Of a stretch of DNA of 34,979 nt, positions 1 to 34,979 are shown piece by piece (within the stretch, counting starts at the first letter, position 1; every line of letters starts with the position of its first letter). Under the pieces are notes generated by a model. That model made no database searches. It was not told where the DNA came from and saw nothing but the letters and a program-made list of their open reading frames with translations. Source of the stretch: a virus; the IMG/VR virus record IMGVR_UViG_3300025941_000011, positions 1 to 34,979 of that record. The stretch is one strand, 5' to 3'. The position numbers and the translations under genes were made by a program.

Positions 1-127
1 CGTCAGAACCGGCTTAACGCGGCGCGCGACAAATTGTTCGAGGTGACGCGCGACCCCGATCACGACATCGAGACGGCAAACGGGCTCAACGCCGAGATTG
101 CCGAACAGGAGCAGCGGCTGTCCTCGC
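1..127. repeat. Left copy of 127-bp terminal direct repeat
   Basis: The first 127 bases are identical to the last 127 bases (34853-34979). The repeat lies inside the capsid coding frame, and the frame is kept across the join. This indicates a circular or circularly permuted molecule cut at an arbitrary point. An exact length of 127 is also a common assembler k-mer size, so the repeat is probably an assembly overlap and not a biological terminal repeat. Confidence 0.95.
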
Positions 128-20871: not shown

Positions 20872-20890
20872 TGGTGCCACTTTTGGTGCC
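20872..20890 (+). repeat. 19-bp direct repeat left of attP (candidate integrase arm site)
   Basis: TGGTGCCACTTTTGGTGCC is repeated exactly at 21082-21100, 192 bases further on, with the tRNA-like core between. Each copy contains two TGGTGCC heptamers 12 bases apart. An inverted heptamer GGCACCA lies at 20898-20904. Arm-type binding sites of tyrosine integrases have this arrangement. This is inferred from layout. Confidence 0.6.
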
Positions 20891-20930
20891 GTTTTCTGGC
20901 ACCAAGCCCCGATTCGCCCCGTTTTTGTTC

Positions 20931-20960
20931 TTGCGGCGACCCGGCGGAAATGCCTATAAG
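20931..20960 (+). promoter_or_regulatory. Putative promoter in front of tRNA-like attP segment
   Basis: TTGCGG (20931-20936), an 18-base gap and TATAAG (20955-20960) resemble a sigma-70 promoter. Transcription would start near 20967, about 12 bases before the first base of the tRNA-Pro-like sequence. After integration this could drive the rebuilt tRNA gene. No gene lies between promoter and tRNA segment, and the rest of 20643-20979 holds no confident gene. Confidence 0.4.
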
Positions 20961-20979
20961 CCATTGGCTGATAAGGGCA

Positions 20980-21018
20980 CGGGGCGTAGCGCAGTCCGGT
21001 AGCGCGCCTGCTTTGGGA
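20980..21018 (+). other. attP: attP core: 5' half of tRNA-Pro(UGG) gene
   Basis: Thirty-nine bases read as the first half of tRNA-Pro: acceptor strand CGGGGCG, TA, D-arm GCGC-AGTCCGGTA-GCGC, G, anticodon stem CCTGC and anticodon loop TTTGGGA with anticodon TGG. After 21018 the match stops: the next bases AGATA cannot pair with CCTGC and there is no T-arm or acceptor 3' strand. The segment is therefore not a functional tRNA. It sits 28 bases from the integrase gene, so it is the phage attachment core for a host tRNA-Pro gene, with exchange in or before the anticodon loop. It carries the 5' half, unlike the usual 3'-end attP. Confidence 0.85.
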
Positions 21019-21045
21019 AGATACCGGGTAGCCACCGTAAGCATC

Positions 21046-22215
21046 TCAATTGTCTAGCGTTTTCGCTCCCGAGACGAGCCTTGGTGCCACTTTTGGTGCC
21101 ATTAAACTTGCCGCCTCCATCGCCGCGCGCACCTGAGCGGTGTCCGAATTGGCGTAGCGCGCCGTCGTCGCGATGTCGGCGTGCCCGAGCATTTCCTTCA
21201 CGACGTTGAGGTTGCCGCAGGCCGCCAAGGTGCGGGTGGCCGCGGTGTGGCGCAGATCGTGGAAGCGCAACGCCGGCAGGCCGATCGCATCGCGCGCCGC
21301 CATCCAATCCTTGCGCCAGCCGTCATGGCTGAACGGGTAGCGGGCGCCTTTCGCCTGCATCACGCGGTGGTGCGGATCGTGCCGGTTGCGGCGGCAGACA
21401 TAGGTAAAGACGAACTCGCGGTCCCGCCCTTGCTCGCGAGCCAGTAGTTGCGCCAGCGCATCGGTCAGTGGCAGCACCAGCAGCTTGCCGCCGGGCCGGC
21501 GCGACTTGACCCGGAAGGTCAGCGTGCGGCCTTGCCAGTCGATCTGGTCCCAGCGCAATCCGATGGCGTTCTCCAGCCGCACTCCGGCGATCAGGGAAAA
21601 TTCGATGAGCGGCCAGTAATCCGGCCGCAGCACCTCGAATAGCGCGGCTTCCTTTTCCGGCGACAGGATCGTCTGCGCCTTGTCGGGCTCCGGAAGCATG
21701 ACTCGGCGCCAGTCGATTTCCGGGACCGCAACGCGCCAGTGCCTGGCGGCGATGATCACCGAGCGCAGTAAGCCGATTTCCCGGTTGATCGAGGCGTTGG
21801 CGCGGTCGCGCAACTCCATCCTGCCGGTCTGTTGGTTGCGGGCGCGGCGGACGCGCCGACGGGCAACGTAATCCTCTAGGTCGCGGGTGCCGAGGCGGGC
21901 CAGCGGCGTCTCGTTGCCTAGCTCGCGGATCAGGGTTTGGCTGTGTCGCTTGATGTCGCCCGCGCTCCTGACGTGCGCGCCGCGGGTTTCCCAATAGCGC
22001 CCAAGGGCTTCGCCGAGCGTGAACCGCGCGCCCGTCGCATCGGCGGCCGACTCTCGACCAGCCTGGGCGGCGGCGAAGACGGCGGCGGCTTCGGCCTCGG
22101 CGGCCTCGCGGGTGTCCGCGCCAAGGCGGTCGCGAAATCGACGACCTCGGAATTGGAAATTACAATACCAGCCGTCTCGGCCTGGCCGCTGTTTGACGAG
22201 TGATTTTCGCCGCAA
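21046..22215 (-). CDS. int: Tyrosine site-specific integrase
   Basis: 389 residues. It catalyses recombination between attP (28 bases downstream of its stop) and the host tRNA-Pro gene. The N-terminus (WYCNFQFRGRRFRDRL) is an arm-binding-type domain, residues about 80-170 a core-binding SAM-like domain, and the rest the catalytic domain: Arg213 (GVRLENAIGLRW), His319-x-x-Arg322 (HDLRH), His345 (LGH) and nucleophile Tyr354 (ARYAN). The open frame reaches 22497, but that part overlaps the HTH gene. A TTG at 22215 has AGGAG eight bases upstream (22224-22228) and gives the family's usual N-terminus, so it is chosen. The C-terminal codons contain one of the two 19-bp repeats. It overlaps the HTH gene by 286 bases. 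Confidence 0.9.
   Translation of the reverse strand: MRRKSLVKQRPGRDGWYCNFQFRGRRFRDRLGADTREAAEAEAAAVFAAAQAGRESAADATGARFTLGEALGRYWETRGAHVRSAGDIKRHSQTLIRELGNETPLARLGTRDLEDYVARRRVRRARNQQTGRMELRDRANASINREIGLLRSVIIAARHWRVAVPEIDWRRVMLPEPDKAQTILSPEKEAALFEVLRPDYWPLIEFSLIAGVRLENAIGLRWDQIDWQGRTLTFRVKSRRPGGKLLVLPLTDALAQLLAREQGRDREFVFTYVCRRNRHDPHHRVMQAKGARYPFSHDGWRKDWMAARDAIGLPALRFHDLRHTAATRTLAACGNLNVVKEMLGHADIATTARYANSDTAQVRAAMEAASLMAPKVAPRLVSGAKTLDN
21082..21100 (+). repeat. 19-bp direct repeat right of attP, inside integrase C-terminus
   Basis: An identical copy of 20872-20890 (TGGTGCCACTTTTGGTGCC). On the minus strand it encodes the APKVAP stretch near the end of integrase. Having one arm-like site inside the int coding end and one beyond the core places the core between two equal sites. 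Confidence 0.6.
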
Positions 22216-22454
22216 GGTCCGCGCTCCTGTTGTTGGAGGTAGTTCGCCAGATCCGATGGTTTGAACTTGCGGCGGCTGCCGACCAGCACATAGCGCAGCC
22301 GGCCCGCCTCGATCTCCTGGGTCAGCGTCTCCGAGGTGATCCCGAAGGCGCGACAAACCTCGGTCTGCGGGATCAGGAGCCGGCCGTGGGTCAGATCCAC
22401 GATCCGCTCCCAGAGGTCGGGGTCGATGCCGGCTGTGGGGGCAGCCATTGGCAT
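21930..22454 (-). CDS. HTH protein upstream of integrase, excisionase-like
   Basis: Up to 174 residues. Residues about 28-70 (LLIPQTEVCRAFGITSETLTQEIEAGRLRYVLVGSRRKFKPSDLANYLQQ) fit a MerR-like winged helix (HTH_17/excisionase type): a strand, a recognition helix, then the wing with G-SRRKFKPSDL. It is likely a directionality factor or regulator of integration. ATG 22454 lies 4 bases from AGGAG (22459-22463); ATG 22448 lies 10 bases away and is equally possible. No stop occurs until 21930, so about 95 residues of Ser/Pro/Arg-rich tail are read out of frame over the start of integrase. Only the first 75-80 residues look like a protein domain. Confidence 0.75.
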   Translation of the reverse strand: MPMAAPTAGIDPDLWERIVDLTHGRLLIPQTEVCRAFGITSETLTQEIEAGRLRYVLVGSRRKFKPSDLANYLQQQERGPCGENHSSNSGQAETAGIVISNSEVVDFATALARTPARPPRPKPPPSSPPPRLVESRPPMRRARGSRSAKPLGAIGKPAARTSGARATSSDTAKP

Positions 22455-22472
22455 ACATCTCCTGTCGTCTGC

Positions 22473-22486
22473 GTGAAAAAAAACAC
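22473..22486. promoter_or_regulatory. Operator-like GTG-A8-CAC site upstream of HTH/int genes
   Basis: GTGAAAAAAAACAC has the same length and ends as the perfect palindrome at 23271-23284. It lies 19 bases upstream of the HTH start. It may let the repressor control the integration genes. Confidence 0.4.
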
Positions 22487-22528
22487 CTCTCCATCATCTT
22501 AGGCGTAACAAAATCTGCCTGTCCATAA

Positions 22529-34246: not shown

Positions 34247-34979
34247 ATGACCCTGGTACGCAAAACCGCCGCCGGCAAGGTGAGCGGAAGCCTCAGCTAC
34301 GTCCTGAGCGACGCCACGGTGGACCGCTACGGCGACGTGATCGAGCCGAGCGGGTGGATGCTCGACAACTTCCGCCGCCATCCGGTGGCGTTGTTCAACC
34401 ACAACCCCAACCAGGTTGTCGGTAACTGGCGCAATGTGCGGGTAGAGGGCGAGCGACTGCTCGGCGATTTCGAGCCGGCGCCGGCCGGCACGACGCAGAT
34501 AGCGGACGATGTGCGCCGGCTGATCGAGGCTGACCTTCTGGCCGCCACCAGCGTCGGTTTTCTCGGCATCGAGTCGGAGCCCATCGACCCGCAGCGGCCC
34601 GGCGGCGGCACCCGCTACACCAGGCAAGAGCTGCTTGAGACATCGATCGTATCGGTGCCGGCTAATCCGGCGGCACTGCAACTAGCGCGATCCCTCGGGA
34701 TCTCGGACGGCACCATAACCTTGGCCTTCGGCACGCCTGCCGCAACCGGGCCGGGATTGGTGACGAAAATCGGCACTCCTGCCGCGATGAAACCCGCATT
34801 GCGGGGCACTTCCATGACAGACCAACCGACCATCAGTCAGCAAATCGAGGACCGTCAGAACCGGCTTAACGCGGCGCGCGACAAATTGTTCGAGGTGACG
34901 CGCGACCCCGATCACGACATCGAGACGGCAAACGGGCTCAACGCCGAGATTGCCGAACAGGAGCAGCGGCTGTCCTCGC
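34247..34979 (+). CDS. Head maturation protease fused to capsid protein, 5' part (continues at base 1)
   Basis: The frame from ATG 34247 is open to the window end and continues in frame at base 1 to 1314, giving 639 residues. Residues 1-150 are an HK97-type prohead protease (peptidase S78 family): VDRYGDVIEP, His52 (FNHNP), Ser102 (AATSVGF), and Glu131 followed by TSIVSVPANPAA. After a Gly/Thr/Pro linker (151-189), residues 190-250 form the helical scaffold-like start of the capsid protein. An internal ATG at 34814 (Met190) could start a separate capsid protein, with only a weak GGGG site. A fused protease-capsid protein would have to cut itself free during head maturation. Confidence 0.9.
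   Translation, partial: MTLVRKTAAGKVSGSLSYVLSDATVDRYGDVIEPSGWMLDNFRRHPVALFNHNPNQVVGNWRNVRVEGERLLGDFEPAPAGTTQIADDVRRLIEADLLAATSVGFLGIESEPIDPQRPGGGTRYTRQELLETSIVSVPANPAALQLARSLGISDGTITLAFGTPAATGPGLVTKIGTPAAMKPALRGTSMTDQPTISQQIEDRQNRLNAARDKLFEVTRDPDHDIETANGLNAEIAEQEQRLSS
34853..34979. repeat. Right copy of 127-bp terminal direct repeat
   Basis: Identical to 1-127. Removing one copy gives a circle of 34,852 bp and restores the full protease-capsid frame. Confidence 0.95.

Follow-up and report, generated by a model that had tools for sequence, protein, structure and literature searches.

Phages and islands that integrate into tRNA genes mostly carry the 3′ end of the gene, as the initial annotation of the DNA described here had rightly stated. 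In Islander, 3760 islands are of the three-prime and 159 of the five-prime type, the latter (159/3919) with a displaced 5′ fragment (PMC4383910). Among 88 S. meliloti prophages, the numbers are 77 and 9, respectively (PMC11476347). The locus described here lies in a phage genome of 34,979 nucleotides (the window, by which we mean the whole stretch analysed) and belongs to the rarer type, since its attP carries a tRNA 5′ half like the attP of these islands and prophages. In those elements the other end holds a displaced 5′ fragment, whereas the window phage shows the attP half only. A further point of difference is the promoter in attP; neither paper treats this subject, and the word occurs 0 times in the main text of each (PMC4383910, PMC11476347). 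According to a review, the recombinant bacterial tRNA keeps its original promoter, very few exceptions aside, and the archaeal pTN3-type integrases are described as a notable departure from this rule (PMC8371274; PMC5495485). In the Thermococcus pTN3-type systems, attB is the tRNA 5′ half and the recombinant tRNA is parted from its original promoter, as we propose here (PMC8371274; PMC5495485). However, the pTN3-type att site lies inside the integrase gene; integration disrupts that gene, and the integrase promoter then drives the tRNA. The attP of the window phage is located outside the integrase gene, with a separate tRNA-like promoter on the arm far from it. Integration of the pTN3 type was rejected for the window phage, because attP lies outside its integrase gene, which converges on the tRNA half, and the promoter sits on the other arm. 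The tRNA-dependent lysogeny of Mycobacterium phage Fionnbharth is also related in that the losses of the host tRNA, its promoter among them, are made up for by the phage; there, a complete phage tRNA gene complements the destroyed host gene and the core is only ~10 bp (PMC10865867). This mode was likewise rejected, as the window phage would restore a tRNA half and does not encode a complete tRNA: a 39-nt half is present and ARAGORN found no complete tRNA gene in the window. Integration with a 5′ half is thus a known minority type. Less has been documented on conserved mimics of tRNA promoters in attP, and in the part of the literature that was searched we found no description of one in a phage.

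The genome carries a siphovirus-type gene set with a terminase related to those of HK97/HK022-like phages, a portal protein and a tape measure protein. The features outside the attachment site that are needed here are the following:

1..127 with 34853-34979, terminal direct repeat of 127 bp, identical ends
21046..22497, minus strand, tyrosine integrase ORF, 483 aa as listed, conserved from about residue 99
21930..22454, minus strand, helix-turn-helix ORF of 174 aa, excisionase-like, overlapping the integrase ORF in another frame

The identical 127-bp ends indicate a circular assembly, and positions 20872-21101 therefore represent an uninterrupted attP. Adjoining it is a tyrosine recombinase gene, whose product matches Pfam PF00589 (2.1e-22) and the phrog_1 integrase family (1.7e-54). 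The gene converges on the tRNA half, with its stop codon 27 nt away. The 174-aa ORF matches phrog_66, excisionase and transcriptional regulator, with an E-value of 3.5e-4 and is conserved in relatives. It overlaps the integrase gene out of frame throughout the window phage and its ten close relatives (L002-L011). The conserved part of the integrase starts within this overlap, where several members show no obvious ATG, so translation of the integrase may require a frameshift or initiation at an internal codon.

The attachment site itself is composed of the following elements:

20872..20891, plus strand, left-arm direct repeat TGGTGCCACTTTTGGTGCCG, candidate arm-type integrase sites, kept in relatives
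20897-20905, inverted copy TGGCACCAA of the left-arm repeat
20931..20936, plus strand, −35 element TTGCGG, ahead of the tRNA half
20955..20960, plus strand, −10 element TATAAG (CTATAA when read at N17), 19 nt before C1
20961..20979, plus strand, 19-nt stretch from the −10 element to C1, predicted to hold the start site and 5′ leader, variable among relatives
20980..21018, plus strand, 5′ half of tRNA-Pro(TGG), C1 to A38, expected attB/attP identity block, ending in the anticodon loop
21012..21018, plus strand, anticodon loop TTTGGGA, probable strand-exchange (overlap) region
21081..21101, plus strand, right-arm repeat TTGGTGCCACTTTTGGTGCCA, candidate arm-type integrase sites, overlapping the 3′ end of the integrase gene

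Repeats of TGGTGCCA thus flank the core on both sides (20872-20891, 20897-20905 and 21081-21101) and are candidate arm-type sites. We consider it likely, with a probability of roughly 0.87 for the explanation as a whole, that the phage is temperate and uses 20872-21101 as its attP, that its tyrosine integrase carries out recombination within the tRNA-Pro(TGG) anticodon loop, and that integration restores a promoter to this tRNA gene, the promoter being a mimic of the housekeeping kind.

The initial annotation had proposed that attP carries the 5′ half of tRNA-Pro up to the anticodon loop, and this was borne out to the base. The half (CGGGGCGTAGCGCAGTCCGGTAGCGCGCCTGCTTTGGGA, 39 nt, 20980-21018) occurs as an exact copy in six other IMG/VR phages and differs from the intact tRNA-Pro(TGG) genes L027-L036 and L061 by 1-3 mismatches. 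After A38, the phage continues with AGAT, whereas every intact tRNA-Pro examined shows GCAG or CCAG, and the tRNA fragment in attP accordingly ends at the anticodon loop. ARAGORN did not find a tRNA in attP by itself; joined to a native 3′ half, the 39-nt half folds as tRNA-Pro(tgg). The anticodon loop is the probable strand-exchange region, because the tRNA-Pro identity ends there and the identity block of relatives with 3′ halves begins at the same stem-loop.

The presence of promoter-like elements TTGCGG-N18-TATAAG ahead of the tRNA half, likewise proposed at the outset, could be confirmed, with a distance to C1 of 19 nt. The readings TTGCGG-N18-TATAAG and TTGCGG-N17-CTATAA fit the relatives equally well. 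A −35/−10 matrix was trained leave-one-out on tRNA-Pro 5′-half sites; the whole family of the window phage was excluded for its own test, and L090, L091, L092 and L167, which may be attL sites, were kept out of the training. With the matrix from phages outside the family, the site at 20931 comes first among the 69,946 positions scored on the two strands of the 35 kb window. Within its own 100-nt region, the score is reached by 59/5000 dinucleotide shuffles (p about 0.01), which is modest. Across tRNA-Pro 5′-half sites, a matrix match was observed in 21/21 cases at near-constant spacing, each reached by at most 5/300 dinucleotide shuffles. A chance resemblance of the promoter was rejected on the basis of the leave-one-out matrix together with this first rank. 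The native tRNA-Pro promoters of Sphingomonas (L061, TTGCAC-N18-TAAGGG) and Sinorhizobium (L071, TTGCGC-N17-TAATGA) were left out of the training; with 17.2 and 16.5 they are on a par with the better phage sites, and their distances to the tRNA are comparable. A generic sigma-70 scan gave no match at the TTGCGG/TATAAG site, indicating that the element is tRNA-promoter-like and not an E. coli consensus promoter. At sites with tRNA-Val or tRNA-Arg 5′ halves, the tRNA-Pro matrix is mostly insignificant (L054, L096, L118, L115, L122), and these sites were not counted as support; the promoter regularity is therefore demonstrated for tRNA-Pro only, plus one tRNA-Val attR, that of Sphingomonas parapaucimobilis, where the score is reached by 2/300 shuffles. 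Two native genes also lack a significant matrix score, the Shinella tRNA-Pro (L075, 267/300 shuffles) and the Sphingomonas tRNA-Val (34/300).

The ten close relatives are IMG/VR phages with integrases 73-95% identical to that of the window phage and with the same tRNA-Pro half beside the integrase gene. In these genomes the conserved block starts exactly at C1. Their left arms fall into two classes with no obvious similarity upstream of C1, class 1 carrying TTGC..-N17-CTATAA and class 2 carrying TTGC..-N17-TAGAAA, so that the −35 and −10 elements persist while the spacer varies. This pattern bears on the idea that the host promoter lies inside the attB/attP identity block, in which case the 5′ half would be the real core and integration would change nothing for the tRNA. 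RHph_I3_18 and L060 (R. leguminosarum pSK06, which was considered as an attL and whose upstream DNA may be of host or of phage origin) have 17 nt upstream of C1 in common, as expected for such a longer block. In the window family, however, conservation ends at C1 and is preceded by two unrelated left arms, and we regard a block that includes the host promoter as very improbable. In class-2 relatives L005, L006, L009 and L011, a conserved palindrome of the type GGAAACC-AAC-GGGTTTCC or AAACCC-AA-GGGGTT lies between the −10 element and C1, in the presumed leader; it is a candidate leader hairpin or operator.

To extend the comparison, we gathered additional integrases from the records of phages, plasmids and IMG/VR and typed the DNA beyond each integrase stop codon. 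Many distant relatives carry 5′ halves on the strand opposite to the integrase gene, namely of tRNA-Pro(TGG), tRNA-Pro(GGG), tRNA-Val(TAC) and tRNA-Arg(CCT). 3′ halves were found in phiLM21, in close kin of Sphingopyxis phage VSN-002 and in others. In the 3′-half relatives nearest in the tree, the half lies on the integrase gene's own strand, distal to the gene. The simplest reading is that the order of integrase gene, crossover and half is fixed while the core is able to sit either way round, which it probably can because the anticodon stem-loop is nearly palindromic. In an integrase tree of 48 rows, the 5′/3′ state needs five changes, at least three of which are forced by well-supported branches. 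A 3′-half clade at tRNA-Pro(TGG) is nested among 5′-half kin at the same tRNA, and within one integrase subclade using this target, L066, L067, L069 and L088 versus L053, L084-L087 and L129 represent a switch of attP polarity. Together with phiLM21 (L058), the first four of these resemble the window phage in having a related integrase and a crossover in the anticodon region, and several of the five use its target, tRNA-Pro(TGG). They differ from it by the opposite core orientation and by carrying the 3′ half; in these phages the host promoter is kept and none was found in attP, whereas the window phage carries a promoter. Among the distant relatives, L054 (PP438430, Synechococcus phage Ssp-JY40) and L081 (PP496355, a Microcystis phage) have tRNA halves and integrases that are alphaproteobacterial in type, and the cyanobacterial hosts named for them may be wrong. 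Two others, L137 and L138, carry two tRNA-His-like blocks with anticodon GTG, ~160 nt apart, near the integrase gene.

In 3′-half relatives, the matrix found no promoter on the integrase side (10/10) or on the distal side facing the integrase gene (10/10). Fisher's exact test for 21/21 against 0/10 gives 2e-8; when related sites are collapsed to 14, the value is 5e-7. Both serve as a guide only since the sequences are related. It is conceivable that the promoter serves the phage itself, with transcripts that run across the 5′ half, enter the integrase gene at its 3′ end and act as an antisense RNA that damps the integrase. The promoter does point at the integrase gene, whose stop codon is 27 nt past the half, and a search for a terminator-like site between the two found none. 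Yet the 3′-half relatives share the geometry of integrase gene, core and half and have no such promoter on the distal arm (10/10), which ties the promoter to the 5′ half. Moreover, a host promoter at attL would produce antisense RNA as well. Such a role in damping the integrase thus seems highly doubtful to us, and supplying a tRNA promoter is the function we favour.

The initial annotation had also called for reading attL and attR in prophages of this type. A relative shows the expected layout, while a lysogen of the window phage, whose host is probably alphaproteobacterial, was not found. Neither for this phage nor for its ten close relatives was an integrated copy obtained: an integrase profile search of genome contigs (alignment A1) gave only a 42%-identity stretch in Pimelobacter, and a search of IMG/VR with the intact tRNA-Pro pattern returned ten contigs, none of which has the left arm of the window phage, and hence no attR of the family. 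The informative prophage is that of S. parapaucimobilis YK209 (NZ_CP155752), which carries a related integrase (about 34% identity) and has both ends readable, flanked by host genes with near-neighbour RefSeq numbers (WP_0424905xx). On the integrase side, attL (about 184219) reads CTTGCCA...ATTAGG...TTCCCGAGAGG followed by a tRNA-Val 5′ half; at the far end, attR (about 223655) reads CTTGCCA...AATAGG...TTTCCCGAGAGG followed by an intact tRNA-Val(TAC). The 300 nt before attL are ~90% identical to the isolate contig L167 and thus represent host DNA; L167, and L090 by alignment score, match the S. parapaucimobilis host flank. At attR, the DNA above the promoter is unrelated to this flank, and only promoter and leader are alike. 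The displaced host half at attL carries C4A, which would mispair with the 3′ half, whereas the phage-borne half at attR has C4, as does L167. In the working tRNA-Val gene, promoter and 5′ half therefore come from the phage and the 3′ half from the host. The prophage lies beside a gene-transfer-agent-like cluster (positions 170546-184032 of the record), and NZ_CP155752, labelled a plasmid, looks chromosomal.

The two ends of this prophage bear again on a host promoter inside the identity block. They share about 12 nt of leader, over which, together with the 5′ half, identity is strict, and their −35/−10 elements are alike. Beyond this, likeness of the promoters is weaker (about 70%, with identical −35 elements), and the spacer and everything above −35 differ, which argues against inclusion of the host promoter. 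The roughly 70% likeness suggests that the phage promoter may have been captured from a host, perhaps along with the tRNA half, and then drifted. Another prophage contig from an isolate (G020/L164) carries an intact tRNA-Pro(TGG) at 392-468; the gene lies at the end remote from the integrase gene and has TTGCAT-N18-TAAGGG upstream. An intact tRNA gene after integration is thus seen in the YK209 prophage and in L164, while the window phage is known from attP alone; a displaced 5′ fragment staying with the host promoter was observed only in the S. parapaucimobilis prophage. The early suggestion that the hybrid tRNA is cut off from its host promoter consequently holds in these relatives and extends to the window phage by analogy.

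According to the model that we propose, the integrase would recombine in the anticodon loop of tRNA-Pro(TGG), and the phage promoter and 5′ half would be joined to the host 3′ half to yield an intact tRNA gene, as seen in the relative. This gene would be read from the tRNA-like promoter of the phage, judging from its sequence, whereas the host promoter would stay with the displaced 5′ half next to the integrase gene. Replacement of the host promoter by that of the phage is well supported by the sequence comparisons, although for the window phage it stays a prediction. Because the tRNA is presumably needed, selection would preserve the tRNA half together with the −35 and −10 elements, whereas the spacer and the arms would drift.

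It had further been proposed that the phage would then control expression of a host tRNA-Pro. A lysogen might indeed gain real control over the tRNA, whose expression could be raised, lowered or regulated: a promoter made of phage DNA may be subject to regulation, and class-2 relatives have the conserved palindrome between −10 and C1. If the promoter were tuned or regulated by the phage, the supply of an essential proline tRNA would track the state of the prophage, for instance upon induction. Against this, the element resembles native tRNA-Pro promoters, and no regulator site common to all members was seen; we consider both control of the tRNA and such a coupling to the prophage state unlikely. 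As the attP element agrees with native promoters in both its sequence and its placement, and neither an operator nor a regulator of the phage was seen, the claim of control is not supported, and ‘maintains’ describes the effect on expression better than ‘controls’. On sequence grounds, the phage promoter looks like a housekeeping mimic that would keep an essential tRNA working and not like a regulatory device.

This alphaproteobacterial integrase family shows the cargo that is needed when a phage carries off the 5′ half of a tRNA gene that is essential, namely the half together with a stand-in promoter. With at least three switches between 5′ and 3′ halves, and a promoter accompanying tRNA-Pro 5′ halves but none accompanying 3′ halves, the family represents a natural experiment on selection at attachment sites. 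Some tRNA genes of lysogens are probably transcribed from phage promoters, which is invisible in genome annotation.
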